Positions 2,690-58,652 of a DNA stretch of 64,000 nucleotides are shown piece by piece. How positions within the stretch are numbered: the stretch's first letter is position 1; each line of letters begins with the position of its first letter. Location: NCBI GenBank assembly GCA_027065235.1, contig JAMOOR010000330.1, positions 1-64,000 of the forward strand, written 5' to 3'. The stretch is from Thermotogaceae bacterium (GTDB lineage Bacteria; Thermotogota; Thermotogae; Thermotogales; Thermotogaceae). The notes beneath the pieces are model-generated. The model was not told the DNA's origin, made no database searches, and worked only from the letters and a program-made list of their open reading frames with translations. The position numbers were made by a program, and so were the translations under genes.

Positions 2690-3454
2690 TTATCGTTCAA
2701 TTATTTTAAGTCTTCTTGCATATTCAATCCAGAAGTTATCTCCGTATTTCAATCCTTCAGTCAGACTAATGAAGAATCTGACTACATCTTCTCTCTTGAC
2801 TTCAACCTTCTCCCACTCTGGAGAGTTCAGCTCAAACCATTCGCAAGTCTTAACTCCTTCTGGTATCCAGCTGGTTCCCAAACAGATAGGATAGAAGTGA
2901 GGGTAAATCTGTTCCCCCCAGAAGGAGGAACAAGCTTTGACAATCTCTTCTGCTACTTCTTTGTGTTCTCCTTTGTAAGCTCTCCTCATTAGTTTCATAA
3001 AGAGTCTTATACCTGCTTCGGGAATGCTGTATCTTCCTTTCACTCCTAACCAGAAAAGGATTTCCCCTCCTCCGTAGGTGGAACTCCAGAAGCTGTCCAC
3101 TTCTCCGAAGTGAACGTGTCCTACCTCGTGAACGAGAACAAACTTATCCGGAACTTCTTGTCTGAAAGCTACTTCTTTCGTTTCTATGAAAGCTACTCCT
3201 ACCGTCTTTGAAGCCGGCGGGAGTTTGCGAATCTGTCTTTCCCACTCCTCCTTCGTAATCAGACCGCTGTCAAGAAGTGTATTCCAGAACATTACCTCAT
3301 CTATCACTTCCGGATTTCTGTCTGTTACTGCAAACTCCTCTTTCCAGTCTATGACTTCCGTTTCGGAAGCAGTCTTCAGAAAGTCGGGGTAACGCTTCTG
3401 CAACTTCTCCGTCAGCTTCGGGTAGTAAGCGGTAAAGATGTCAATCGCTTTCAA
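2690..3454 (-). CDS. zincin-like (HExxH) protein, 254 aa
   Basis: The protein contains FVLVHEVGHVHFGE around residues 120-135, an HExxH zinc-protease motif inside a hydrophobic helix. This places it with ImmA/IrrE-like or other M78-type small metallopeptidases by motif only. A plausible third ligand (Glu in the helix after GGGEILFW) cannot be fixed by eye. The start is TTG 3454 with GGGGG 8 bases upstream; no better ATG exists. It is transcribed towards the terminator at 2651 and away from the origin. In mobile elements such proteases often cleave repressors, but no partner repressor is adjacent. Confidence 0.6.
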   Translation of the reverse strand: MKAIDIFTAYYPKLTEKLQKRYPDFLKTASETEVIDWKEEFAVTDRNPEVIDEVMFWNTLLDSGLITKEEWERQIRKLPPASKTVGVAFIETKEVAFRQEVPDKFVLVHEVGHVHFGEVDSFWSSTYGGGEILFWLGVKGRYSIPEAGIRLFMKLMRRAYKGEHKEVAEEIVKACSSFWGEQIYPHFYPICLGTSWIPEGVKTCEWFELNSPEWEKVEVKREDVVRFFISLTEGLKYGDNFWIEYARRLKIIER

Positions 3455-3531
3455 AGTGTCCCCCTAACAGTTGAGTTCGCAAAAGTATACCGCAACCTGC
3501 AAATCTCAAGTGAGCAAAACGACCTCTCCTG

Positions 3532-4132
3532 TGTCCCATTTTCTCAAAATACGCTGTAAAAAAGTGGGACACTATGAAGAATAAGTAACACAATACTTTT
3601 AATATTAGTGTCCCAAGTGTCCCACTTTTATATTTTTATAGTGGGACACTATATAGCTTTTGCTACACAACACTTTCCGATTAGTGTCCCACTTTCTTAC
3701 AGATTCTCCCCAAAAATTTTTTCTTTATTTTTTTCGCATTCCTACCTGAGATAGTGTTAGATATTTCTAATATTGAGACATTATGTAATTAGAGAGACGC
3801 TCAGGTAGTCGTGAGAATTTTTCAAAAAATTTTTCTCTATATATACCTGCTTGTTTCTGTAAAAAAGTGGGACAGTAAAGAGATAAGCGTTGGGAGACAA
3901 TAGTTATCTTCCGTCCCACTTGATTTTTTAAAAGTGGGACACGTGGGACACTGCTTTTTTCAGTCTTCTCAAGCTGTTGTAAATCAAGGAGTTATGGAAG
4001 TAGTTTAGTGTCCCACTTTTTACATATTGCAGGACAATAGCTTTAGAAAATAGAGTTTTGTAAGTTGTTGGTTTTCAAGGGATTGCTACTGTCCCACTTT
4101 TTGGGACACTTTTTGGGACAGTAGTGGGACAG
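3532..4132. other. iteron-type replication origin (candidate)
   Basis: This gene-free stretch carries about 15 copies of an 8-9 base unit, GTGGGACA or its complement TGTCCCAC. Copies start near 3532, 3564, 3608, 3617, 3641, 3684, 3867, 3913, 3934, 3943, 4008, 4090, 4102, 4114 and 4124, in both orientations, several extended to AGTGTCCCACTTTT. Between the clusters lie A/T-rich tracts (3710-3735, 3818-3845) and an inverted repeat. The region abuts the 3' end of a primase-helicase gene. Clustered iterons, A/T-rich DNA and a replication gene are the classic layout of an iteron-controlled plasmid origin. Confidence 0.75.
3742..3808. repeat. inverted repeat inside origin region
   Basis: CTACCTGAG (3742-3750) and CTCAGGTAG (3800-3808) are perfect inverted repeats 49 bases apart, enclosing A/T-rich DNA and flanked by A/T-runs on both sides. 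This iteron-free island could be the melting site or a primase-loading hairpin. Confidence 0.55.
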
Positions 4133-4152
4133 TAGCAGGGGTAGGAGGGAAG

Positions 4153-6840
4153 TTAGAGTTCAATTTCGTCTATTTCTTCCTCTATCCTTGTGCTGATGTT
4201 GAGAGGGTAGAGGTAGAATCTCTTACCGAAGCACAGGACTGTAAGCTTTTCCCTATCTCCTAAAAGCTCAGCTTGTTTAAGTTTCTGAGTAAGGAGTCTC
4301 CTTCCCATTCCGAACTTCTTAGCAAGCTCAGACAGACCGGTAGAGGTAATATAGAGGGAAGAGGAGATAATCTCTGAATTCTCCCTCTCCACTCTGCTGT
4401 AGAGGAGAAAGTCTCTTTTGCTCTCCCTCAAAGTAAGAACAGGTTTCCCGTCCTCTTCCTGTTCTACTAAAAGACCTGTAGGAGCTACTTCCTCTATGAA
4501 CTCTTCCAACCTCTCTTTAAAGCTCTCCTCATCTCCCAGTATATACTCCCTGTATAGCTTTTCGTTAAAGCTACCGATTTCTTCTAAAGCGTCCCAGAGA
4601 ACAGATGTATCTATCCCGTAGAGTTTACCTACTTCTTCCATAACAACGCTTGCTAAAGCTAAAAAGCGTCTTACTTTAGCGTCAAGCTTGTAGCTTTCTG
4701 AAAAGTCTGCGTCCCTTTCCCTGAAACTCCTCTCTATCTCATCCCTGTTCTCCTCAAAGTATCTAATCCAGTCTGCAAGCAGATTTCCGTAATTCTCAGA
4801 GAAAACTGTTAGGAGCTTTCCTAACCTCTCTCCACCAAAAGTCTCTTTCTTTGCGTTGACTACTAAAACTCTCCTGAAGATTCCCTCAAAGTATGCGTCT
4901 CCTGAGTAGGAGAGTATTTCGTCTATTCCCATCTCACTTGAAGTTAGTATCAGTCCTCTGTAAGTAGCAGTAGAACGCAGAGTTAGGTCTATCTTCATTC
5001 TTGTTCTTCCCATTCCTTCTACAAACTTGTAAACAAAGTCTGTAAACTTTTCTGCTCTCCTCTGCGGGTTTTTGTCAAGTTGCTTAACTTCCTCTAAGTG
5101 GATAGGAAAGTCCTTTAAAGAGGATAAAAATCCTTCAAATCCCCCTTCGCTGAAGTTAAAGGACTTTTTCAAAGAGGGAGAACCGAAAAAGCTAACTGCT
5201 CCCTTAACTGCTGTTGTTTTTCCTGTTCCGGTCTCTCCCTGAACAAAAACTACCAAGTTGCAGTCATCTCCAAGTATCGGATAGAGAACGCTTGACGTTA
5301 TGCCGAATATCCACAAAACAGCAGAGTGAGGAAAGTTTAAAATCCACTCCTTTACAGCATCAAGCTCAACCTCTCTCTTTCCTCTCTTCCCTAACTTCTC
5401 CTCTATCTCACTCCCTACCTGCAGAGCTACGTCTGCTGTAAGAGGATGGATGTAGGTAAGCTTATCCCCTACCTTGTTCCACCCCGTCCTGCTTGAGTAG
5501 TAGCTCCTCTTTATCCTGCTCTTGTTCTTCCTTATGAATTTTGTAAAGTAGTTCTGAATCTTCCTGCTTTCGCTTTCTGATACCACAACTTTCCTCTTGT
5601 GCAGGTAGCTTGTAAAGAGCTTTGCAGAAGACGCTACAGAGCTTGATACTTTTATCTCCCTTTCTCCCATAAAGTTTAAGGTAGCTAAGTATCCTCCGTC
5701 TATTTCGTCTATGTTCTCTGCTATTTCGGAGACTACAAAAGCTTCGCAGACGTCCTCACTACCGTAGTAGAGGAGTCCGTCTTTTATGCTGAATCCCTCC
5801 GGTAGCTCAGGGATAAAGTCAATCCCGAAGAGCTTTTTATAGACGTTTAAAAGTTCCCTTTCTGCTTCTCGCTTCAGCTTCTCCTCAAGCTTCTTCCTCT
5901 TCTGCTCTACAAGACCGAAAAACTTTCTCTTTATCTCTCTCTTCCCGACTTTGTAGTGTTTCTTTACTTCCTCTGCTACTGCCGGGGGAAGCTCCCGTAA
6001 GTAGTCTGCTAACCGGTAAAGGAGTCTGTCTAAGGAGAGGGTTTCCCGATACTTCTCAATCGGAGAGACCGCAGTCTCCATCAAGTTTTCTAAGATTTTT
6101 TCCGGAGACTCTCCCTCTCTTTCTTTTGCTGTTAAGTAGTCGTCTATTCCCTTTTCCTCTTCCGGGTTCCAGTTAAGACTCTTAACTGATACTACTCCTT
6201 CAGAGAGCAGGTAAGAGTAAAGACTTATTTCCGCTTCTGCTACGTTCGGATTAAACTTACCGTCTGCATCAAAGCAGATAAAAACTTTCCTGTTTTGAAA
6301 AGTTGCTCCTACTTCTTTGAAGACTTCTCCGTTCCAGTTCCAGACTCCACCGAGTCCCAAAACTGCAAACTTCTGGTAGTCCGTAGAGAGCTTGTCTAAC
6401 TCTTGCTGGAGTTTAGCTGTTTTCTTTTCTCCTTCTGTTATAAAGTAAACAGACTTTGGAGACGATAAAGAAACTTCTGGTAAGAAGTAAACGTGAACAG
6501 TTTTTTCAACGTGAGCAGAAGATGGTTGCAAATACTTCGGTAAGTTTTCTTTATTCTGCTGATAGTAAGCGCTGCTTTCGTTCCATTTCACGACTTTGAC
6601 TCTACCGAAAGCAGGTGTAACGTGGTGGTAAGGAATAACGTATCCGTCTTCTGCTATCCTGCTACCCGTTGCTTTTTCTACAAGCGACCTGTGGACATAG
6701 TGCTTGAAGTTTTCCTCTGTTAACGGAAGCAGATGCATTCTGCAAACTGTTTCTAAACTGAGTCCACTTTTTTCAAGGTCTCTAATAGCTTCTTCAGAAA
6801 ATCCTTGACTCAGAAGCTCTTTGAGACTATAATTGCTCAT
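4153..6840 (-). CDS. plasmid primase-helicase (TOPRIM/DUF3854 + DUF927)
   Basis: The 895-residue protein has two readable parts. Residues about 130-240 resemble a DUF3854/TOPRIM-like primase fold, with TEGEKK at 135-140, FDADG at 190-194 and a GIDDYL end. Residues about 450-760 resemble a DUF927 helicase-type ATPase, with a Walker A P-loop GETGTGKTT at 535-543 and arginine-rich sensor segments (FEGIFRRVLVV). The C-terminus looks like a winged helix (KFGMGRRLLTQKLKQAELLG). Such fusions replicate plasmids and prophages. Its 3' end abuts the iteron field, so it probably initiates there. ATG 6840 has GGGGAGG five bases upstream. A tnpB element begins just upstream and may have displaced its promoter. 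Confidence 0.8.
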   Translation of the reverse strand: MSNYSLKELLSQGFSEEAIRDLEKSGLSLETVCRMHLLPLTEENFKHYVHRSLVEKATGSRIAEDGYVIPYHHVTPAFGRVKVVKWNESSAYYQQNKENLPKYLQPSSAHVEKTVHVYFLPEVSLSSPKSVYFITEGEKKTAKLQQELDKLSTDYQKFAVLGLGGVWNWNGEVFKEVGATFQNRKVFICFDADGKFNPNVAEAEISLYSYLLSEGVVSVKSLNWNPEEEKGIDDYLTAKEREGESPEKILENLMETAVSPIEKYRETLSLDRLLYRLADYLRELPPAVAEEVKKHYKVGKREIKRKFFGLVEQKRKKLEEKLKREAERELLNVYKKLFGIDFIPELPEGFSIKDGLLYYGSEDVCEAFVVSEIAENIDEIDGGYLATLNFMGEREIKVSSSVASSAKLFTSYLHKRKVVVSESESRKIQNYFTKFIRKNKSRIKRSYYSSRTGWNKVGDKLTYIHPLTADVALQVGSEIEEKLGKRGKREVELDAVKEWILNFPHSAVLWIFGITSSVLYPILGDDCNLVVFVQGETGTGKTTAVKGAVSFFGSPSLKKSFNFSEGGFEGFLSSLKDFPIHLEEVKQLDKNPQRRAEKFTDFVYKFVEGMGRTRMKIDLTLRSTATYRGLILTSSEMGIDEILSYSGDAYFEGIFRRVLVVNAKKETFGGERLGKLLTVFSENYGNLLADWIRYFEENRDEIERSFRERDADFSESYKLDAKVRRFLALASVVMEEVGKLYGIDTSVLWDALEEIGSFNEKLYREYILGDEESFKERLEEFIEEVAPTGLLVEQEEDGKPVLTLRESKRDFLLYSRVERENSEIISSSLYITSTGLSELAKKFGMGRRLLTQKLKQAELLGDREKLTVLCFGKRFYLYPLNISTRIEEEIDEIEL

Positions 6841-14416: not shown

Positions 14417-14665
14417 ATGAAAAAGAGACCGATTGACCCGAAAGCGGATGGTAAGTTTGCAGAAAAGTTTCTTAACTCCGACTACCACTTTGTAGCAGGT
14501 TCTTTCAAAAGGAGAGCATCTTTTGCTTGTCATCGTTTCATCCTGGGAGGGACAGGAGCAGGAATGACCTGCTGGTCGTTGTGGGAGGTCACGGCAGTAA
14601 AGCTTGCGAAAATTCTTGAAAAGATAGTAATCTACTTAAAAGAAGACAGCGGAGGAGTTCTGTGA
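14417..14665 (+). CDS. hypothetical protein sharing PIDPKAD head
   Basis: It starts two bases after the upstream stop. MKKRPIDPKADGKFAEK repeats the N-terminal head of the protein at 12489. The middle holds a GGTGAGM loop that resembles a P-loop but lacks the Lys-Ser/Thr, so it is not a credible ATP site. 82 residues; unknown. Confidence 0.6.
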   Translation: MKKRPIDPKADGKFAEKFLNSDYHFVAGSFKRRASFACHRFILGGTGAGMTCWSLWEVTAVKLAKILEKIVIYLKEDSGGVL

Positions 14666-14991
14666 GACATACTTCCAACTACTGCATCTTTAACTTAACA
14701 GGAAGAGATATCGTTGTTGTTAACGAAAACGGGGCAATTTCGGATATTCCTAACGACGGTAACTTCAGTATTGTCAAAAAGGAAGAGGAAGTTCAAGCCG
14801 ACTGGATTCCTGCTGTTTCTTTGAAACTAAAACCGCTTGTCAGGGTGACGATTCCAGAACTGAAAATAGACGAAAAGGTTGATTTTCCGGACATTGAAAA
14901 CTACTTCTACTCTATCTGGAACAAGAAAGCTGTAGTAATAGTTCCACAATGGGAGTTCTGTGTTTTAAGTCGGGGAAGCTCTTGTTTCTAA
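14662..14991 (+). CDS. small protein of the 'NLT' type, paralogue of the gene at 15626
   Basis: GTG 14662 overlaps the preceding stop and follows AGCGGAGGAG. IFNLTGRDIVVVNENG followed by IPNDG matches FVNLTPHNVTVLTENG and IPSAG of the divergent neighbour at 15626-16006. Both then have a charged EE patch, an L.P strand pair and a V-rich strand near the end. Small NLTPH-type proteins are scattered in phages and plasmids without a known role. Confidence 0.65.
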   Translation: MRHTSNYCIFNLTGRDIVVVNENGAISDIPNDGNFSIVKKEEEVQADWIPAVSLKLKPLVRVTIPELKIDEKVDFPDIENYFYSIWNKKAVVIVPQWEFCVLSRGSSCF

Positions 14992-15080
14992 CTCCCTACA
15001 AGTTTACAGTGAAAGGAAACAGATTGATAGTCAAAAAGTTTAAGATTGAAGAAATGTTTGTTTTTCCTTGGAGCTTTTGA
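14949..15080 (+). CDS. possible 43-residue basic protein
   Basis: ATG 14949 lies inside the previous gene in another frame and runs to TGA 15078-15080. The product (MGVLCFKSGKLLFL...) is basic and strand-rich. It extends the operon right up to the RNA region. The overlap of 43 bases and weak ribosome site lower confidence; it might also be a frameshifted tail of the previous gene. Confidence 0.35.
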   Translation: MGVLCFKSGKLLFLTPYKFTVKGNRLIVKKFKIEEMFVFPWSF

Positions 15081-15121
15081 GTTCAGTTTCTGAGCTTTGC
15101 AAATAATCAAAACAAAAGAAT

Positions 15122-15138
15122 ACCTCCCTTAGTTGGTT
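15122..15138 (-). promoter_or_regulatory. orphan leader copy (no gene follows)
   Basis: On the minus strand this reads AACCAACTAAGGGAGGT, identical in core to functional leaders, but no convincing gene starts behind it. It sits right after the structured RNA and, with the copy at 16012-16027, brackets the RNA plus the gene at 15626 as direct repeats. Confidence 0.7.
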
Positions 15139-15143
15139 AATAT

Positions 15144-15620
15144 GTGGGGATGCCGACCGGATGAGGGTCTGGAGCAACCCTCTCGGCACACCCACACTTA
15201 CTCGTTCCACTCCTGCGCAAAGGACTGCTTCCTACTCCGGCTTCGGAAGCAATCCCGGGACTGCGTAAGGTGTCGGTCCCTGGGGAATCCTTTTCCCCGA
15301 CACCTTCAGTCCAGTCCACGCGCTTCTCCTCGTTCTCATACTGGCGGACCCCAGGACTTGTCCGGGGTGATTTCTCGGTAGGGGGACCGCCCGGACCCGG
15401 CAGCACCGCTTCATCACCCGCAGACCAAGCTCCAGCTTGTCGTCTGCTGGGGTGGTGCGGTTCTTACCCCCCTTACTACCCAGCATCCTTTTTCCGTCCC
15501 CACCGGTCGCCAGCCGGTCGCGGGACTTCGGTTCGGATGCGACCCTCACAGGGTGGCGCCGCCACGCTTTCACCCTGACCCAGACCCTTTATGTCTGGGA
15601 TTTTACGGGGAGCTATTGCT
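15144..15620 (-). ncRNA. large structured non-coding RNA (candidate, unknown class)
   Basis: About 475 bases, visibly far richer in G+C than every neighbour and with no sensible protein in any frame. Perfect or near-perfect stems follow each other: 15152-15187 (GCCGA/TCGGC outside GAGGGT/ACCCTC), 15227-15250, 15267-15306 (AAGGTGTCGG/CCGACACCTT enclosing GGGGAA/TTCCCC), 15349-15367, 15420-15447 (GCAGAC-CAAGCT/AGCTTG-GTCTGC), 15516-15544, 15549-15577 and 15579-15599. Unpaired bases are A-rich purines (GAAA, GUAAGAA) on the minus strand, so that strand is probably transcribed, downstream of the gene at 15626. In A/T-rich hyperthermophiles, GC-rich islands mark structural RNAs. It shows no RNase P, tmRNA, rRNA or SRP signature that I can see. 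Confidence 0.75.
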
Positions 15621-15625
15621 GGACG

Positions 15626-16006
15626 CTACTCAAGCGAACCAGCAACGAGGACAAGGGAGCGGACTCCCTTAATCCTCCCTTGTTCGTCCCTCACTGCTCC
15701 GTTAGGAGTAGGACCAGTGTTGGGAACGAGCACCGACTTTGCTCCTCTTGCGAGGAGCTTGTCGGCAGCTCCCTGAGCGACAAGCTGGGAAACAATGATA
15801 TGTTTCCCAGTGATGTCTACTCCCTCAGGGAGCTGAAGCTCCCCATACTGGGTGCGGACAACTGGGATTTCTCCCAGCTGTCCGCATACTTCCTCCTTCT
15901 GCTGGAGTCTTGCAACTCCAGCAGAAGGGATATTCATTTCACCGTTCTCTGTAAGAACGGTAACATTATGTGGTGTCAAGTTAACGAATAAGTTAACGAA
16001 CTCCAT
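15626..16006 (-). CDS. NLTPH-type small protein, 126 aa
   Basis: ATG 16006 follows a leader (AAACCAACTAAGGGAGG, 16012-16027 minus strand) and a TGTTATAAT promoter element at 16039-16047. The product begins VNLFVNLTPHNVTVL, then TENG, a strand-turn-strand and a C-terminal NTGPTPNGAVRDEQGR loop. It resembles the gene at 14662 in its first 60 residues. Its stop lies 6 bases before the structured RNA, so RNA and mRNA may be one transcript. The gene is also GC-richer towards its 3' end, as if acquired together with the RNA. Confidence 0.8.
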   Translation of the reverse strand: MEFVNLFVNLTPHNVTVLTENGEMNIPSAGVARLQQKEEVCGQLGEIPVVRTQYGELQLPEGVDITGKHIIVSQLVAQGAADKLLARGAKSVLVPNTGPTPNGAVRDEQGRIKGVRSLVLVAGSLE

Positions 16007-16038
16007 TACTTCCTCCCTTAGTTGGTTTGTCTACTATT

Positions 16039-16047
16039 ATTATAACA
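16039..16047 (-). promoter_or_regulatory. extended -10 element
   Basis: Reads TGTTATAAT on the minus strand, 33 bases upstream of the gene at 15626-16006. A separate CTATAATAA near 16088 faces the opposite way towards the gene at 16127. Confidence 0.5.
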
Positions 16048-16126
16048 CTTGGTTACTAAACAGTCAATTATCGGATTAGGTAGTCTGCTATAATAAAACT
16101 AAACAAACCAACTTAGGGAGGTGAAG

Positions 16127-17131
16127 ATGCTTACTTTAAAATTCAGAAGAAAAGGACAATGGATAGAATCTATCGTAGATGAGATTGAATTCAGAGATAA
16201 CGGTCTTGTATACAAGACCGTTGATACGACTTTTAAACTTCCCAGAGTCATTCTGGGAAGCAGCAGAAAAGCAGACAAATTATTGGAGCAGTTTGACTGT
16301 TCCGACCACAATCTCCTCATTATCTATTGGGGAGACATAGCTGATTACCACGTTCTCTACGTTACGGAGCAAGGGCTCCGTAGCGTAGGAGTGGAAGTAA
16401 GAAGGAAGGTAAGGGTTAGAAAAGTTGTTGATGAAAAAACCCTCACCGTTACCGAAGTAGAGGAAGAACTCCTCTACTTCAACGATGTCCTCGTGGGATA
16501 TAGGACTCTATCTAAAGTATCCCACGAAGAGCTGGAAGTAGAGGTAATTGCTTCCAGCTTTAAGACAGATATAGACTTAGTATGGTATGCTACTGCTGAA
16601 AGGAGGGGGGAAGTCATAGTTAGAAACAAAGACTTCCCCGAGGTTAAAAACAAAGTTAGTGTTTCTATAGGATTAAACGGAAACGCTTATGTATCCTGTT
16701 CTGTAGAAGAAGACGTCAAGAAACTACTCCCTGAAAGTTTCATTAGGGAGCAACAGGAACAGCTCCAGAAAGACTTCCAAGAGTGGAAGTCTAAAGTCAG
16801 CTCCATTTTCGGAGTTGATGTTTCTGGAGCTAAAACCGTAGAGGGAGTGTATGAGCTGGTTAAAGAAAGATACCCAGCTCTCACTCCAATAGCGTTTGAG
16901 AAAGTTCTGGATGGGAAGCTTTCTGTTTCTCAAATCCCGTCCAGAGAAGAAGCGAAAGAAGTTAAAAAGCACATCACTAAGGGGGGATACTGGGAAGATG
17001 ACGACACTGCAGTCGTTGACCTTTCCGGTGTCCCTGAAGAACTCTTTCCTGCTGCACACTTCGTAGTAGAAAGTGAGTTCCTATTTGTTGAATGGGAAAC
17101 TCCCACCAGAGCAAGGTGTTACAGCGAATAG
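16127..17131 (+). CDS. hypothetical protein, 334 aa
   Basis: ATG 16127 follows the textbook leader AAACCAACTTAGGGAGGT (16105-16122). The protein is beta-rich for the first 200 residues (alternating strands such as YKTVDTTFKLPRVILG), then has a helical segment (REQQEQLQKDFQEWKSKVSS) and an acidic C-terminal strand region. No family recognised. A second leader copy lies 22 bases after its stop, so the gene is bracketed by direct repeats. Confidence 0.75.
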   Translation: MLTLKFRRKGQWIESIVDEIEFRDNGLVYKTVDTTFKLPRVILGSSRKADKLLEQFDCSDHNLLIIYWGDIADYHVLYVTEQGLRSVGVEVRRKVRVRKVVDEKTLTVTEVEEELLYFNDVLVGYRTLSKVSHEELEVEVIASSFKTDIDLVWYATAERRGEVIVRNKDFPEVKNKVSVSIGLNGNAYVSCSVEEDVKKLLPESFIREQQEQLQKDFQEWKSKVSSIFGVDVSGAKTVEGVYELVKERYPALTPIAFEKVLDGKLSVSQIPSREEAKEVKKHITKGGYWEDDDTAVVDLSGVPEELFPAAHFVVESEFLFVEWETPTRARCYSE

Positions 17132-17153
17132 GTGGGGGTTCTCCCCTTTCTTA

Positions 17154-17169
17154 CCTAACTTAGGGAGGT
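17154..17169 (+). promoter_or_regulatory. orphan leader copy
   Basis: CCTAACTTAGGGAGGT on the plus strand. The DNA beyond it is the antisense of topB and holds no plus-strand gene, so the copy is orphaned, like the one at 15122-15138. Confidence 0.65.
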
Positions 17170-32567: not shown

Positions 32568-32604
32568 CACGTACTTCCTTCCACCATCCCTTAGTTGGTT
32601 TATT

Positions 32605-32620
32605 TGTTATAATTATAACA
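32605..32620. promoter_or_regulatory. perfect palindromic -10 element
   Basis: TGTTATAATTATAACA is its own reverse complement and presents TGTTATAAT on both strands. It lies between two leader-headed divergent genes, 25 bases from each leader or less, so one element probably drives both. Confidence 0.7.
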
Positions 32621-32645
32621 CAATACTAACTTAGGGAGGTGTAAT

Positions 32646-33503
32646 ATGAAAAAGAAAAAGTTTCTTACTAAAGCACCTAATGTAGTCGGAACAATCTACG
32701 AAGATGTAGCAGATGTGTGTGTAATTGAAACTCAATTAGAAGTTCCCTCTATTGAGGGACAGTTACACACACCGTATAAGTTACTGATTGTAGAAAAAAA
32801 AGGAAAAGCAGTTAGTTGCTTCCCGGTATCAGAAAACTACCAACTTATTTTGCATCGGGAAGCACTGGAGTACGTAACAAAGAGACTGGACACTGAGTCT
32901 ATCCACTATGATGTTAAGTTTGCAAAAGACATCGGTAGTAACGCAAGAATGCTTGTTGTTACCGACCAGAAAGTAGATGAGAAAAGAATCAGTTTCTTGG
33001 TCGAAAACTCTTATAACACTACCAGTGCATTGAAAATCTATTTCTCACTGGTGGACAAAAACACACTCTACCCAATTTCCCTCCTGCTCCGTCGTGTCCA
33101 CCTTGAGGGACACATGACGGAAGTAGAGTGGGAGAAGGTAGTAGAAGAAATTCGTTATCTTCCCGCTCTGCTGGAAAAGCTGAAGTCTGTCAAGACTTCA
33201 ATTGATTTTATTGGTCGTATCAAAGATTTCAAAACCGTCTACCGTCGGAAAAACAAAGACGGTGAAACGGTTGAAGAAGTAGTAGAAATCGGACAGCAGA
33301 TATATCAGGAACTGCTGTCCGAACTGGGAGAACACCCGACGGTCTATGACCTGTGGATGAAGCTCTCCCAGAAGAACTATGAAAAGCGTCGGGGATTGAC
33401 GCTCGTAGTAAAGAGAAAAATTGAGCGTCAACTTCTCCGACTATTTGAAACTTACCGTAAACGTGTAGAGTTGGAAATTTTTCCTTCGTATCTAACTGTG
33501 TAA
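32646..33503 (+). CDS. DUF932-like protein
   Basis: ATG 32646 follows CTAACTTAGGGAGGT. SENYQLILHREALEYVTKRL near residue 62, a strand pair (RMLVVTDQK), ENSYNTTSALKIYF and NTLYP in the middle, and a PTVYDLWMKLSQ segment near the end follow the DUF932 plan (plasmid/phage proteins of about 280 residues). The usual arginine-Cys-asparagine 'RvvCxNt' is only partly kept (DKNTLYP). Role unknown. Confidence 0.5.
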   Translation: MKKKKFLTKAPNVVGTIYEDVADVCVIETQLEVPSIEGQLHTPYKLLIVEKKGKAVSCFPVSENYQLILHREALEYVTKRLDTESIHYDVKFAKDIGSNARMLVVTDQKVDEKRISFLVENSYNTTSALKIYFSLVDKNTLYPISLLLRRVHLEGHMTEVEWEKVVEEIRYLPALLEKLKSVKTSIDFIGRIKDFKTVYRRKNKDGETVEEVVEIGQQIYQELLSELGEHPTVYDLWMKLSQKNYEKRRGLTLVVKRKIERQLLRLFETYRKRVELEIFPSYLTV

Positions 33504-33563: not shown

Positions 33564-33821
33564 ATGAATCTGTATTCACAAATTGAAGAACTTAAGGAGA
33601 CCATTTATTCCCGCGGACATGAATGGACGGAAGTAGTCGGGTTCTACGGTTCTGCTCCTGTTCAAGAGACATTTTGGGAACCTGAAACCGACGAAGATGC
33701 AGAAGCACTTGACCTGCTTGAAAGTGCAGAAAATCTGCTTAAAGAGGGAAAGAAGCAAGAAGCTCTTTCCCTCGTAAAAGAAGCAGAAAACCTACTAAAC
33801 CAACTGGAGGTGGAAATATGA
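33564..33821 (+). CDS. small acidic protein, 85 aa
   Basis: Leader AAACCAACTGCAGGGGGA (33540-33557) precedes ATG 33564. The C-terminal half is a predicted helical hairpin (LLESAENLLKEGKKQEALSLVKEAENLL) resembling a TPR-like or MIT-like pair. Its last codons include the leader of the next gene, which overlaps by 4 bases. Confidence 0.65.
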   Translation: MNLYSQIEELKETIYSRGHEWTEVVGFYGSAPVQETFWEPETDEDAEALDLLESAENLLKEGKKQEALSLVKEAENLLNQLEVEI

Positions 33822-34189
33822 GACTGGATACCATGTGCAGGATTGCAAATGCTTTTCCTTACTGTGATGATGAAATGTTAATAAGCTTTTTTAACTATGC
33901 AAGCGACAGACTTACGGACAAAGATTTAACTGACATTGAAAAAGTCAAGGAAGTTTACAGTGATTTCCTTGACTATGTAATCAATAGCTACAACTACTGT
34001 GAAATTATTGAGAAAGCTGGAGGACTAACAAAGTTTGTAGAAGCAGTATTGAACACTTCCACCTCCGACCCGTTTGCAACAGCGGGAGAGGTGGAAGCAG
34101 AAAGCTTGAGAGTGCTGGTAGCTTCTCTAATACCAGCACCGGAAGACATAGTCAACTTCTTGGTTGCAGAAGCAGCAGCGGGGGATTAA
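33818..34189 (+). CDS. hypothetical acidic helical protein, 123 aa
   Basis: ATG 33818 overlaps the previous stop, and its leader AAACCAACTGGAGGT lies inside the upstream coding region. All-helical, acidic; no family recognised. Its stop codon lies in the loop of the terminator hairpin. Confidence 0.7.
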   Translation: MRLDTMCRIANAFPYCDDEMLISFFNYASDRLTDKDLTDIEKVKEVYSDFLDYVINSYNYCEIIEKAGGLTKFVEAVLNTSTSDPFATAGEVEAESLRVLVASLIPAPEDIVNFLVAEAAAGD

Positions 34190-45023: not shown

Positions 45024-45265
45024 AACTGTTCGCAAACTGTTCGCAAATTTGCGTCCAGTTTTAAGCTGAAATTAACCGAAATTAACCGAAATGAACAGAG
45101 TAGGAAAAAAGCTGAAGCTGTTGTGGGAGTTAGAGAAACGTTGGTGCCCGGGGCGGGAATCGAACCCGCACGGGCTTGCGCCCAAGGGATTTTGAGTCCC
45201 CCAGACAACCATTTAAACATCAATACTTTCAATCCTGCTGGTCGCAAATTGGACGCAGGAAATCA
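45024..45265. other. attP-like recombination site with integrase arm repeats
   Basis: The core is a tRNA-Leu 3' half (45142-45200). On the left, two tandem AACTGTTCGCA units (45024-45045), TTTGCGTCCAG (45048-45058) and three GAAATTAACC-type units (from 45068) are present. On the right lies GCAAATTGGACGCAGG (45244-45259), an inverted match to TGCGTCCA. This is the core-plus-arms layout of a tyrosine-integrase attP, beside the integrase gene. Confidence 0.75.
45142..45200 (-). other. 3' half of tRNA-Leu(CAA), attachment core
   Basis: On the minus strand: an anticodon stem-loop (GGGGA CTCAAAA TCCCT, anticodon CAA), a long variable arm (TTGGGCGCAAGCCCG), a T-arm (GCGGGTTCGATTCCCGC) and CCCGGGCACCA. 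The acceptor's 5' strand and D-arm are absent; instead there is unrelated A/T-rich DNA. So this is not a working tRNA but the portion that would restore a host tRNA-Leu gene upon integration. Confidence 0.9.
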
Positions 45266-54770: not shown

Positions 54771-54791
54771 GGGGAGCTGAAACCGCTCCCC
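54771..54791 (-). terminator. stem-loop between VWA and macro genes
   Basis: GGGGAGC (54771-54777) and GCTCCCC (54785-54791) pair around 7 bases, touching the stop codon of the VWA gene. Confidence 0.6.
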
Positions 54792-56341
54792 TACCTAAGT
54801 CTTCTTAGAAGCAGTCCCAGCTCTTGTGCTGCAAGTTCAATTGAATTCAAGACAATGTACCTTTCAGTTAGCTGCTGACAGGTTTCTCTGACTGTATTTA
54901 CGTAGTCGCTTCTGTTAGCAGTATAAACGAACACGAACTTATACTTGTGCTTGTTCAAAAACTCCCAGTCGTTTCTGCTAACCTGAGCGTCTGTAAAGAA
55001 CACTATGTAATCGTATTGCTTGAGGAGAGGTTCTACGATTCTCAGTCCCTCTCCCCAACTGTAGTAATACTTCCTGAGACTGTTAAAGTCTCTAATAAAA
55101 ATCGGTTTACTAACTGCATCGTTGCAGATACATACGTCTGCTCCTACTTCGTCTTTCATAGCTACTGCGAGGTGGGAAGCGTAGTAAAACGGACTGTAAA
55201 CTTCTTCAGGATACATGCTTCCGCTTCCGTCTATAACGAACAGGAGACGGAGTCGGGGAGATTCTTTTACTACTTCTCTGTCCACTTTGAGTATCTCCAG
55301 TTTTCTTTGTGCTATGCGTTTGGGAGATACTCTTTTACCGGACAGAGAGTAGTCTCTTACTATGTTTCTGCTTCTTACTCTCCACCTGCGGAGTCTGTCC
55401 CGTAAGGTGGATAGGAGTCTTTCGTCCCATTCCCAATGGTTATACTCAAAAAATTCTTTTGTTTCTGCTTCATATTCTGGATGGAAGAAACGACGAATGT
55501 CGTCGGACTCTTCGTCTCTTTCGGAGTCGGAGTTACTGCTGGAAGTAGCTTCTACCTCCTCCAGCTTCTCGTCCATTTCTTCTTCTGACAATTTCTCTTT
55601 GCGTTCACCTTCTTTCCAGAAGTCTGTTGGTCCAGTTTCCGTGTAAATTCGGTTTCCGCTCGGTAAGAAAAGCTGTTCCCACTTTTCGTAGAACGGTTTT
55701 ATAACTTCTACCAACTCCTGAGTAGAGGAACAAGTTAGAGACTTTTCTAAGTATTCCTGACAGTCTAACAAGTATTCTTTTAAAGACCTATCAGGATATT
55801 TAATCTGCAAAAACTTTTCTAATTGTTTATAAACGACTTCAAGTCTCTTCTTATACTCCTCTTCTACATACCTGCTCCACATACTCCAGCGTAATAGGAT
55901 AATCAAGTTAGCAAAGTTGTAGTAGTTTTCGTCTATTGTTTGATAGTAAGCGTCAAAACTGAGGGAATGAAGCTTGTCAAAATACTCACTCAGTTTCTTG
56001 ATTCCCGTTTGCTCCACTATCAGATGTTCTATACGAGCATCTTCAAAGATGTTAATAAGAGCAAACGGAATGTCTTCGTTCTCTACCCAGTTAGTATTGC
56101 GATAGTGGGAGATTTCGTGAGCTACTAATGCTTTCCCTACTTGCAGCAGCTCACTTTCATCTCCCACTCTATCAACAATTTCGGACAGTCCGATAAGAAT
56201 TCGTCTGTCCTTTGAGTAGTAACTTTCAGCAGACTTGAAGCTGACAAATATCTGATACTGTTCACCTACTCCAGCTATAAAGGTGGAAAACAGCTGGAGC
56301 TTGCGTTGTAAGTTTTGTTTGTCAAGTTCAGTAGCTATCAT
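54791..56341 (-). CDS. CobT-like VWA protein with HExxH domain
   Basis: ATG 56341 has GGGAGG six bases upstream, in a leader copy (AAACCAACTCCGGGAGG). Residues about 65-110 hold ALVAHEISHYRN (HExxH, His75/His79) and INIFEDARIEHL, as in CobT/VWA proteins with a zincin-like head. An acidic Ser/Glu linker (about 250-290) follows. The C-terminal VWA domain has the MIDAS DGSGSMYP near 370 and FFTDAQVS near 455. Such proteins work with MoxR AAA+ ATPases to load metal ions or remodel targets. A MoxR gene lies upstream in the same direction. Confidence 0.85.
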   Translation of the reverse strand: MIATELDKQNLQRKLQLFSTFIAGVGEQYQIFVSFKSAESYYSKDRRILIGLSEIVDRVGDESELLQVGKALVAHEISHYRNTNWVENEDIPFALINIFEDARIEHLIVEQTGIKKLSEYFDKLHSLSFDAYYQTIDENYYNFANLIILLRWSMWSRYVEEEYKKRLEVVYKQLEKFLQIKYPDRSLKEYLLDCQEYLEKSLTCSSTQELVEVIKPFYEKWEQLFLPSGNRIYTETGPTDFWKEGERKEKLSEEEMDEKLEEVEATSSSNSDSERDEESDDIRRFFHPEYEAETKEFFEYNHWEWDERLLSTLRDRLRRWRVRSRNIVRDYSLSGKRVSPKRIAQRKLEILKVDREVVKESPRLRLLFVIDGSGSMYPEEVYSPFYYASHLAVAMKDEVGADVCICNDAVSKPIFIRDFNSLRKYYYSWGEGLRIVEPLLKQYDYIVFFTDAQVSRNDWEFLNKHKYKFVFVYTANRSDYVNTVRETCQQLTERYIVLNSIELAAQELGLLLRRLR

Positions 56342-56370
56342 CTGCATCCTCCCGGAGTTGGTTTAGAAAA

Positions 56371-56392
56371 AGAGGGAGACTAAGCTCCCTCT
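56371..56392 (-). terminator. stem-loop with stop codon in loop
   Basis: AGAGGGAG and CTCCCTCT pair around ACTAAG; the TAG of the 58-residue gene is in the loop. A near copy lies at 56588-56607. Confidence 0.6.
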
Positions 56393-56556
56393 TCTAAGTT
56401 AGACAGTCTGTTTTCAATACTGCTTAGCTGTTCTTGAATACTCTCGTAGTCATAGGAATAGTCTTCTTTAAGTTCTTCCAACTCTTCTTTTAGTTCTTTA
56501 ACAGTTTGCTTTAGTTCTTCTATTTGTTCTCTTAACTCTGCAACTTCCCAACTCAT
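56380..56556 (-). CDS. coiled-coil microprotein, 58 aa
   Basis: ATG 56556 follows leader AAACCAACTTTTGAGAGGT. Almost the whole sequence is a heptad coiled coil (VAELREQIEELKQTVKEL, then NRLSNLEEGA). It starts MSW and ends EGA like its neighbour. Likely an adaptor for the MoxR-VWA pair. Confidence 0.6.
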   Translation of the reverse strand: MSWEVAELREQIEELKQTVKELKEELEELKEDYSYDYESIQEQLSSIENRLSNLEEGA

Positions 56557-56587
56557 CTTTTACCTCTCAAAAGTTGGTTTTCAAGAA

Positions 56588-56607
56588 GAGGGAGACTAAG
56601 CTCCCTC
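56588..56607 (-). terminator. stem-loop with stop codon in loop (second copy)
   Basis: GAGGGAG (56588-56594) and CTCCCTC (56601-56607) enclose the TAG of the next gene. The 22 bases match the copy at 56371-56392 except at the end. Confidence 0.6.
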
Positions 56608-56751
56608 GTTATGTTCGCTATGCGGTGGTGGTAATGGTGGTTCATCGTCTAAATCGTCTAAAATCTCTCTCCAATCTTCTGGGACTTCCTCTTCCCTACC
56701 AATGTTGATTAGATGCTGGTAATCGTCTAAAAAGTTGTCTATCCAGCTCAT
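56596..56751 (-). CDS. acidic microprotein, 51 aa
   Basis: ATG 56751 overlaps the stop of the gene before it (ATGA) and has a leader (CTAACTATAGGAGGT) embedded in that gene. MSWIDNFLDDYQ, an acidic middle (LDDLDDEPP) and a Pro-His tail. It shares MSW... and ...EGA ends with the coiled-coil microprotein. Confidence 0.55.
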   Translation of the reverse strand: MSWIDNFLDDYQHLINIGREEEVPEDWREILDDLDDEPPLPPPHSEHNEGA

Positions 56752-56858
56752 CTTTTACCTCCTATAGTTAGTTCAAGTTCTACTGGTTGCTGACCAGTAG
56801 CTTTAGCAACCTCTTCTACAACCTCTGCAAGAATCTCAATAAGTTCTCCTACTGTCAT
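56748..56858 (-). CDS. microprotein, 36 aa
   Basis: ATG 56858 follows the full leader AAACCAACTTAAGGGAGGT (56864-56882 minus strand). One helix (VGELIEILAEVVEEVAKATG) and a strand (QQPVELELTIGGKR). The end of its coding region doubles as the leader of the next gene. Strong leader and overlap support it despite the length. Confidence 0.5.
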   Translation of the reverse strand: MTVGELIEILAEVVEEVAKATGQQPVELELTIGGKR

Positions 56859-56919
56859 TTTCTACCTCCCTTAAGTTGGTTTGGTTGGTTTCCAAAAGCT
56901 GGAACAGAGTAGAAAACTT

Positions 56920-58218
56920 CTATTCCAGCGATAAGTCTTCCATTAACTCTTTTAAAGCTTGGACCTGCACCTCGTCGGGGAATCCTTGAGTGTCCCTGTC
57001 CACAATGCGGTAGAGACAGGTAAACTCAAAGGACTCCCACCAGCTCATACCGCTGCTTATCTTCAGCTCGACCCAGCTCCTGAATGTTCCCGTGTCTATC
57101 GGATACGGGAACTGTCCCCTACGGTAAGAATCTCTCTGGGACTGAACGAAACGCTGGAGCTTGTCTGCTTCAGCTTCATCCAGTCCCAGTTTGAGGAGTA
57201 TTTCCCTCTCTGTCGCTGTGTCGTAGTCCCAGAAGCGACAGATGAGGAAACGACGCATCAACGCTGGGTCAAGCTCTTCTGTCCCGGAGTAAGAAGCTCC
57301 CAAATTCGCTAAACCGATAAACTGGAGCTTCTTTTTCGGAACAGCTATTTCCTCTCCAGTAACAAAGTTTTGGAGTCGGTAACTCTTCCCTACTCCATCC
57401 ATAGCTTTGACAAGAATGTTGAGAGCTTTAGGAGTAGCTCTGGTAAGCTCTTCCAAGACTATTACGTAACGCTTTCCATCAGGAAGATTCTGAGCTTCCT
57501 TAAAAGCTCCCCACAGCTCTCCGTCACGAACTTCCCACTTTCCGTCGGAAGTGGGGACGAATTTTGCGAGTAGGTCCGTATCTTCCATACCGCTGGTAAA
57601 GTTGATAACACAAAACTCCAGCTCTCCTGCTTTCTGCTTTTGCAGGAGAACTTTTAATACCGTATGCGTCTTACCGCTGCCGGTTGGTCCTACTATGAGA
57701 GTAGGAAGACTGGTAGCAAGAATCTTTTCTACCTCTTCTGTTCTGCTGCTGGTTGTAGTAGCAGTAGGTTTTTGTTGGGAAAGGATGTCTATAAATTTTT
57801 CTACATCTTCTTTCCAAGAATCTCTTGGGATTCGTAAAGCTTCCCGTAGGAAATACAGGACCCATGCAGTATGCTTGCACTTCCTGTTGTTCTTCCAAAA
57901 GTTACAGTAATCACTTATTCCGAAACGCTCTTTCAGTTCCTTATCTCCGCACCAGATAGCAAACTTCCCGGTGCGGGGGTTTTGAGAGAGGGAGACGATA
58001 TGCTTTCTTCCTCTGTTTGTACTCTGAACTAAAAAGTAAAGGACAGGAACATTTGGAATTTTCTCTCCACTCTCAATATCCTTCCAGGTATAGTTGCTTA
58101 TTACTCCTTTCTCTTTTAAACAACACATGTAACGGAATTCACCTTCGTAGAACTCCTCGTGTCTTTGTATTTCCCTCTCTACAAACTTCTCAAGCTCTTT
58201 TAAAAGCTTCTTCTTCAT
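56920..58218 (-). CDS. MoxR-type AAA+ ATPase with SWIM-like head
   Basis: The N-terminal 160 residues contain CNFWKNNRKCKHTAWVLYFL (Cys105, Cys114, His116), like the second half of a SWIM zinc finger; Cys90 may be the first ligand. The AAA+ part has Walker A GPTGSGKT (177-184), Walker B VIVLEEL (Glu in place of the usual Asp) and NLGASYSGTEELDPALMRRF (sensor/arginine finger), as in MoxR/AAA_5 enzymes. Its partner should be the VWA protein at 54791. Leader AAACCAACTGGAGGAG precedes ATG 58218. Confidence 0.85.
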   Translation of the reverse strand: MKKKLLKELEKFVEREIQRHEEFYEGEFRYMCCLKEKGVISNYTWKDIESGEKIPNVPVLYFLVQSTNRGRKHIVSLSQNPRTGKFAIWCGDKELKERFGISDYCNFWKNNRKCKHTAWVLYFLREALRIPRDSWKEDVEKFIDILSQQKPTATTTSSRTEEVEKILATSLPTLIVGPTGSGKTHTVLKVLLQKQKAGELEFCVINFTSGMEDTDLLAKFVPTSDGKWEVRDGELWGAFKEAQNLPDGKRYVIVLEELTRATPKALNILVKAMDGVGKSYRLQNFVTGEEIAVPKKKLQFIGLANLGASYSGTEELDPALMRRFLICRFWDYDTATEREILLKLGLDEAEADKLQRFVQSQRDSYRRGQFPYPIDTGTFRSWVELKISSGMSWWESFEFTCLYRIVDRDTQGFPDEVQVQALKELMEDLSLE

Positions 58219-58262
58219 TTCTTATCTCCTCCAGTTGGTTTAGTTGACTGGTTTCTCTACAC

Positions 58263-58286
58263 CCGTTCCCCAAGAACGGGGAACGG
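58263..58286 (-). terminator. intrinsic-type stem-loop
   Basis: CCGTTCCCC (58263-58271) and GGGGAACGG (58278-58286) pair around 6 bases, just beyond the stop of the gene at 58295. Confidence 0.65.
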
Positions 58287-58294
58287 ACAGTTGG

Positions 58295-58627
58295 TTAGTG
58301 AAACTTCCTGCTTCTATTTCCTCTCCACTTCATAGAGGGAGAAAGGACGGTAACAACTACGAGATACACCTCTCCTTCTGGATAGCGGGGACATCTGCGT
58401 CCTTTACTGTCCATCTTTTCTAAAACAAGACGGTGTTCTCCTACTTTGACACAGAACTGTTCCGATAGTGGAGTAAGTTGGTAAAGACTCTCCAGAACTC
58501 TGATTCCCCCTACTTTTCTCAGGAAGTCCTTAAGAGACTCCCTAAACCTTGTCTTCAGCCGCTGCTGAGCGTGTTTCGTGATTAAGACGCGCTCAGACAG
58601 TTTTGCATACCGTTCAACTTCAACCAT
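58295..58627 (-). CDS. small basic protein, possible RelE/DUF4258-type
   Basis: ATG 58627 follows leader CTAACTTAGGGAGGT and a perfect palindromic promoter. VLITKHAQQRLKTRF (residues 14-28) recalls the HAxxR head of DUF4258 and some RelE-like toxins; strands YLVVVTVL and a basic C-terminus (KWRGNRSRKF) follow. No antitoxin gene is next to it, so a toxin label is not secure. Confidence 0.4.
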   Translation of the reverse strand: MVEVERYAKLSERVLITKHAQQRLKTRFRESLKDFLRKVGGIRVLESLYQLTPLSEQFCVKVGEHRLVLEKMDSKGRRCPRYPEGEVYLVVVTVLSPSMKWRGNRSRKFH

Positions 58628-58652
58628 CTTGCACCTCCCTAAGTTAGTTTTA

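Follow-up and report, generated by a model that had tools for sequence, protein, structure and literature searches.

A candidate structured RNA in a G+C-rich island of a conjugative plasmid, probably of a heat-loving bacterium

A G+C-rich stretch of about 480 nt on a conjugative plasmid stands an even chance, in our judgment, of being a genuine structured non-coding RNA (ncRNA) that is cotranscribed with a gene for a 126-aa protein, released from the mRNA and of help to the plasmid. For this stretch we computed composition, folding statistics, the absence of coding, a promoter-like site and the plasmid context. The window is the whole stretch of DNA analysed, 64,000 nt from the start of one contig; positions below refer to it unless they lie further along the same contig. 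The central features are these:

15144..15620, minus strand: G+C-rich, non-coding structured segment, the candidate ncRNA (by composition, folding z, predicted stability at 75 °C and coding tests)
15626..16006, minus strand: 126-aa gene of a phage/plasmid protein family (PHROG 30542/21731; PHROGs E 5e-17), with a hairpin-dense coding sequence
16012..16027, minus strand: extended Shine-Dalgarno leader AACCAACTAAGGGAGG of the 126-aa gene (by sequence)
15123..15138, minus strand: orphan leader, a second copy immediately 3′ of the RNA and followed by no gene (by sequence)
16039..16067, minus strand: sigma-70-like promoter, TTGACT-N17-TATAAT (11 of 12 consensus bases), with a TG ahead of the -10

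A G+C-rich island without a reading frame

The original prediction singled out 15144-15620 by its G+C content, and the composition bears this out. The stretch has 62.3% G+C, the plasmid mean being 40.6% (sd 0.041, in 477-nt windows), and the richest other 477-nt window on the 82-kb contig reaches 50.5%. The left edge of the island is abrupt, at about 15141, where G+C rises from 0.33 to 0.60. On the right side G+C stays at 0.53-0.58 across most of the 126-aa gene, until about 15920.

No protein-like frame had been seen in these bases, and none emerged. The longest open frame does not exceed shuffle length (p 0.34), two of its ORFs have zero matches in Pfam, and the period-3 power is weak (2.3 vs. 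5.7-13 for real genes) and nominally greater than that of shuffles (p 0.02). This weak periodicity would suit debris, that is, a decayed gene or mobile-element remnant lying between modules, whose folding comes from its composition and from the hairpin tendency of the plasmid. The orphan leader right after the stretch, which suggests a lost neighboring gene, would suit it as well. Decay, however, should return G+C towards 41%. The tested ORFs also belong to no protein family, no intron or other RNA model matches, and the stretch folds beyond what composition provides and is predicted to be stable at 75 °C. We consider an origin as debris improbable.

Functional ncRNAs of thermophiles are high in G+C and their mRNAs are not; the structure of hyperthermophile mRNAs is no different from that of random sequence (PMC5598986). 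As expected of a structural ncRNA that stands out as a G+C island in a thermophile, the stretch is at once high in G+C, non-coding and folded beyond shuffles. The G+C-island ncRNAs described by Klein, Misulovin and Eddy in 2002 reportedly came from archaeal genomes. The signal is the same in both cases, G+C that stands high within a thermophile genome richer in A+T, but their work supplies a detection principle rather than an RNA family, and 15144-15620 belongs to a bacterial plasmid.

Predicted folding

The predicted folding energy of 15135-15625 is -223.7 kcal/mol on the minus strand (z about -4.3 against dinucleotide shuffles) and -212.2 kcal/mol on the plus strand (z -4.7). On either strand none of 100 dinucleotide shuffles folds as well. 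Within 15144-15620 about 18 helices with a minimum length of 4 bp are predicted at a pair probability P > 0.5, and the dense stems described earlier for this stretch are essentially right, as are their coordinates. Individual elements are:

15615..15646, minus strand: hairpin that bridges the end of the 126-aa gene, stop codon included, and the first bases of the non-coding stretch (8 bp, P 0.96)
15483..15540, minus strand: GCATCC/GGATGC stem around the hairpin at 15496-15526 (P 0.97 and 0.91)
15420..15447, minus strand: bulged hairpin of 6+5 pairs with loop UGGA (P 0.98-0.99)
15267..15306, minus strand: double hairpin with a 10-bp perfect outer stem (P 0.90; perfect inverted repeat)
15221..15256, minus strand: 12-bp hairpin (P 0.98)
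15144..15195, minus strand: 3′-terminal hairpin, 12 bp then 7 bp, directly before the orphan leader (P 0.99)

The double hairpin had been described before and reappears here. The hairpin at 15420-15447 is present too, but the 12 pairs first counted in it are 11, with a 2-nt bulge. When G.U and A.C mismatches within the hairpins were compared for a sign of selection at the RNA level, no difference was seen.

The strand and the transcript

The minus strand is more likely the RNA strand. Its composition (A.23, C.27, G.35, U.16) is close to that of RNase P RNAs (RNA strand) from thermophile genomes that are relatives of the bin. Its z of about -4.15 is inside the range of these RNAs, -1.7 to -7.5, a range that is approximate because some of the loci are read on the opposite strand. 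The fold predicted for 75 °C retains -17 kcal/mol per 100 nt, with 56% of the bases paired; the RNase P RNAs have -19 to -22 kcal/mol per 100 nt with 57-59% paired, and ordinary plasmid genes have -2 to -5 kcal/mol per 100 nt. The coding sequence of the 126-aa gene is predicted to be as stable at this temperature as RNase P RNA. The minus-strand reading of the original prediction gains support from the composition, which matches that of structural RNAs in thermophiles. The stretches GAAA and GUAAGAA mentioned there were likewise found on this strand. A-rich unpaired positions show no excess over same-composition shuffles and were dropped as strand evidence, composition alone being used.

The stretch lies downstream of the gene at 15626, as had been said, on the same strand and 6 nt past the stop codon. 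The promoter-like site at 16067-16039 (minus) is upstream of this gene (15626-16006). No terminator-like sites were found on the minus strand from the promoter to the end of 15144-15620, and no intrinsic terminator was found at the 3′ end of the stretch. The simplest model is a single transcript with the gene first and the RNA second; by this model the predicted promoter should transcribe 15144-15620 behind the 126-aa gene. A single folded molecule made of gene and RNA was also considered and rejected: complementarity between the parts is no greater than in shuffles (fractions 0.13-0.66). A fold of the whole transcript contains two long-range helices of 11 bp each (P > 0.9), and ordinary genes yield similar ones.

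The 126-aa protein has relatives in Paenibacillus phages, Bacillota plasmids and archaeal viruses. The phage and plasmid gene tables of these relatives list no comparable RNA gene behind them. The orphan leader at 15123-15138 suggests that the RNA was formerly between two operon genes. Orphan leaders flank the 15.1-17.2 kb module on its two outer sides, at 15123-15138 (minus) and 17153-17168 (plus), as if recombination or gene loss had occurred at leader sequences. Nearby, at 14662-15083 (plus), a 109-aa ORF seems by eye to be continued in another frame to about 15083, which suggests a frameshift or a sequencing error.

The host plasmid and pTHEAM01

The contig is 82,015 nt long and its ends overlap by 127 nt; it is therefore most probably a plasmid that closes into a circle of 81,888 bp. 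It carries genes for a VirB4-type ATPase, a TraD-type coupling protein and a TrbI-like protein, and also encodes a pilus/type II secretion-like set, topoisomerase III and an integrase. The mobile element in which the RNA had been placed can now be described as a circular 81.9-kb conjugative plasmid. At 3454-4153, GTGGGACACT-like repeats in both orientations adjoin a DUF927/DUF3854 gene, and the region is a likely replication origin. The 3′ part of a tRNA-Leu-like sequence adjoins the integrase gene at 45140-45212 (minus) and is probably attP. No full-length counterpart of this half was found in the bin, and the contig may for this reason be mis-binned. By gene content and genome sizes the bin itself would seem to belong to Thermotogota. 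Plasmid proteins used as probes of viral contigs gave no matches.

Among plasmid records the best match to the coupling protein is on pTHEAM01 of Thermovibrio ammonificans (31% identity), and about 20 proteins of the plasmid have homologues there. Together these make an Aquificota host likely, and the Aquificota plasmid context suggested earlier is probable. The host is probably a heat-loving bacterium of deep-sea vents.

A hairpin of about 50 nt together with a shared Shine-Dalgarno leader precedes 11 operon genes of pTHEAM01 (NC_014917.1 about 69061-76402, minus strand), among them ssb, Rad52-type and MoxR-type genes. The operon genes with the shared leader are mostly hairpin-dense. An alignment of the 11 hairpin copies reveals covariation: at 11 of the 19 consensus pairs both partners change and pairing is preserved. 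Rfam matched no family on pTHEAM01 at threshold. A model of the 11 Thermovibrio leaders (R3) found 11 strong copies, which are the very sequences used to build it, and had no match in 15144-15620 or elsewhere in the 64-kb window.

The plasmid being conjugative and both strands of 15144-15620 folding equally well, the stretch might act as DNA, a hairpin-rich element that serves for instance as an oriT or as an origin or promoter of the single-strand type. Conjugative leading regions often carry ssb and Rad52-type genes, and the hairpin-dense operon of pTHEAM01 has both. The asymmetry of the minus strand (G > C, A > T) is nevertheless a signature of structural RNA, a hairpin DNA site does not require 62% G+C, and a repeat-rich, origin-like region is available elsewhere, at 3454-4153; the G.U and A.C mismatches are uninformative in this respect. 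A DNA-level element is in our view very unlikely.

Search for relatives and comparison with known large RNAs

The original prediction matched the stretch to no known RNA family, and this stands. In the whole 64-kb window, no Rfam 15 family was matched at curated thresholds, including ROOL, GOLLD, OLE and raiA, and a permissive cmscan of 15000-16120 returned only weak matches, all implausible. Identity with ROOL, GOLLD or OLE was rejected for want of a covariance-model match, a group I or group II intron for want of a core or domain V match, and RNase P RNA and tmRNA for want of a covariance-model or ARAGORN match, the likeness to RNase P being just one of composition and stability. A tRNA search of the 64-kb window found none. 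Single divergent sequences can escape covariance models, and the stretch could be such a sequence, a highly diverged member of a known family beyond the reach of the Rfam models. The permissive scan of the region gave no plausible match, and we take this origin to be highly improbable.

BLAST in the bin's order found no homologue of 15144-15620; a match of 18-21 nt in three relatives apparently lies within an oxidoreductase gene and was set aside as chance. A model of the 3′ 196 nt, a single-sequence model of little reach, found nothing in 103 genomes of the bin's phylum, and searches of phage and plasmid records yielded no relative of the stretch. Aquificota plasmids had been thought worth searching for homologues; on one of them, pTHEAM01, two models, each of a 196-nt part of the RNA, had no match. 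The stretch is a plausible candidate for a new RNA class, with no homologues found in these searches.

To our knowledge, the functions of the large mobile-element RNAs ROOL and GOLLD are still unknown. A 520-nt long non-coding RNA of a Lactobacillus salivarius megaplasmid is one that we take to be a ROOL RNA. Its deletion lowered the copy number of the plasmid (PMC5643018). ROOL and GOLLD occur in phages as well as prophages, and tRNA islands are often close by (PMC12286853). Like ROOL, the candidate is about 500 nt long, highly structured, non-protein and on a mobile replicon, but it has no Rfam match and no tRNA island in the window, and its plasmid is that of a thermophile. GOLLD is likewise a large structured RNA of mobile elements; the candidate is shorter, has no match to the model and lies away from tRNAs. 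With OLE it shares the size class, the extremophile source and an operon-like setting, but again not a model match, and OLE is an RNA of Gram-positive extremophiles and anaerobes (PMC9723947). Marks of ROOL, GOLLD and OLE are conserved, elaborate secondary structures supported by covariation, and homo-oligomeric RNA particles. By analogy the candidate may work like these RNAs; by the model tests it is outside their families.

Hairpin-dense genes and a shared leader

Hairpin density of genes was scored against shuffles that preserve the protein and codon usage. By this score seven genes far exceed the remainder of the plasmid's genes, and two sequence motifs recur on the plasmid:

1458-1760, the 126-aa and 335-aa genes (15626-17131), 32646-33503, 33818-34189, 54791-56341 and 56920-58218: hairpin-dense genes (by codon shuffles)
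936, 1436, 1761, 16012-16121, 32585-32639, 33542, 33799, 34215, 51642 and 56348-58649: AACYAACT-N2/3-GGGAGG leader sites
24376, 32605, 42062, 47315, 51619 and 58653, plus strand: palindrome TGTTATAATTATAACA (at most 1 mismatch), upstream of plasmid genes

The codon-shuffle z is about -9 to -10 for the 126-aa gene and about -12 for the divergent 335-aa gene, the lowest value among the genes being -12.5. All genes with z < -5 (7/7) are preceded by the extended Shine-Dalgarno leader AACYAACT...GGGAGG. The median excess is 10.1 kcal/mol per 100 nt in leader genes vs. 1.9 in the rest (13 vs. 69 genes, p 0.0036), and several leader genes are not hairpin-dense. Within the assembly the leader motif is confined to this contig, and as a probe for sister elements it gave only single matches, about the chance level. 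The palindrome TGTTATAATTATAACA includes a -10-like hexamer and recurs upstream of several modules; it is a likely, if putative, shared operator/promoter of a plasmid regulon. On pTHEAM01 the MoxR-type homologue (32% identity) is among the hairpin-dense genes, as is, to a weaker degree, the homologue of the gene at 54791.

By codon-preserving shuffles, the protein genes on either side of 15144-15620 are denser in hairpins than the RNA stretch itself, and the number of stems alone is therefore no marker of an RNA gene. The markers here are base composition, non-coding character and predicted stability at 75 °C. With z about -4, against -12 to -15 for the 126-aa coding sequence, and with a much higher G+C content, the stretch probably differs in kind from the coding hairpins and is unlikely to be just more of the same.

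These observations bear on whether the stretch is simply a structured 3′ UTR of the 126-aa mRNA, a tail that shields an unusually heat-stable, nuclease-resistant transcript, of a kind that the plasmid would make for one set of genes, and has no separate molecular function. Its place on the same strand 6 nt past the stop codon, the hairpin spanning that codon and the lack of an intervening terminator-like site would all be natural for a 3′ UTR, as would the RNase P-like stability of the coding part at 75 °C and the hairpin density of other genes of the regulon. A length of 480 nt, on the other hand, far exceeds the gaps of about 60-100 nt between other genes of these operons, the z of -4 at 62% G+C is unlike the -12 to -15 of coding hairpins, and in most records the relatives of the 126-aa gene have the next gene directly behind. 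A 3′ UTR appears to us rather unlikely, though it deserves to be taken seriously.

A wider scheme can be drawn, which we put forward tentatively and ourselves find doubtful. One set of plasmid genes, with a shared leader and often the palindromic operator, would have had its synonymous sites moulded so that dense, heat-stable hairpins form; the RNA would be the extreme member of this system, the 126-aa coding sequence and the RNA would act together as a single bifunctional structured RNA, and conjugative plasmids of the Desulfurobacteriaceae type would share the system.

A model for the RNA and its significance

In the reading that we prefer, an ncRNA of its own, a minus-strand transcript would start from the promoter at 16067-16039, and the RNA would be the 3′ part of this dicistronic transcript, behind the 126-aa phage-type gene. 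The predicted fold of the RNA is compact, with about 18 helices, and would be largely kept at 75 °C. Cleavage or 3′ trimming would then separate it from the mRNA, and the freed RNA would persist as a stable molecule, alone or with protein. Large ornate RNAs of phages and plasmids offer the analogy by which it might aid plasmid maintenance or expression. We infer the transcription of the stretch, its release from the mRNA, its intracellular stability and its role. Against an ncRNA stand the failure to find a homologue, the equal folding of the plus strand and the lack of an intrinsic terminator at the 3′ end. Further, hairpin density is a wider trait of the transcription unit, including its coding sequence, and pTHEAM01 has no detectable copy.

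If the ncRNA is real, a large thermostable RNA carried by a small vent plasmid would offer a new and tractable class. The gene set that surrounds the RNA may outweigh it in importance. Coding sequences whose synonymous sites are packed with hairpins, in two plasmids of only distant similarity, contradict the published view that the mRNAs of hyperthermophiles are in essence unstructured (PMC5598986).
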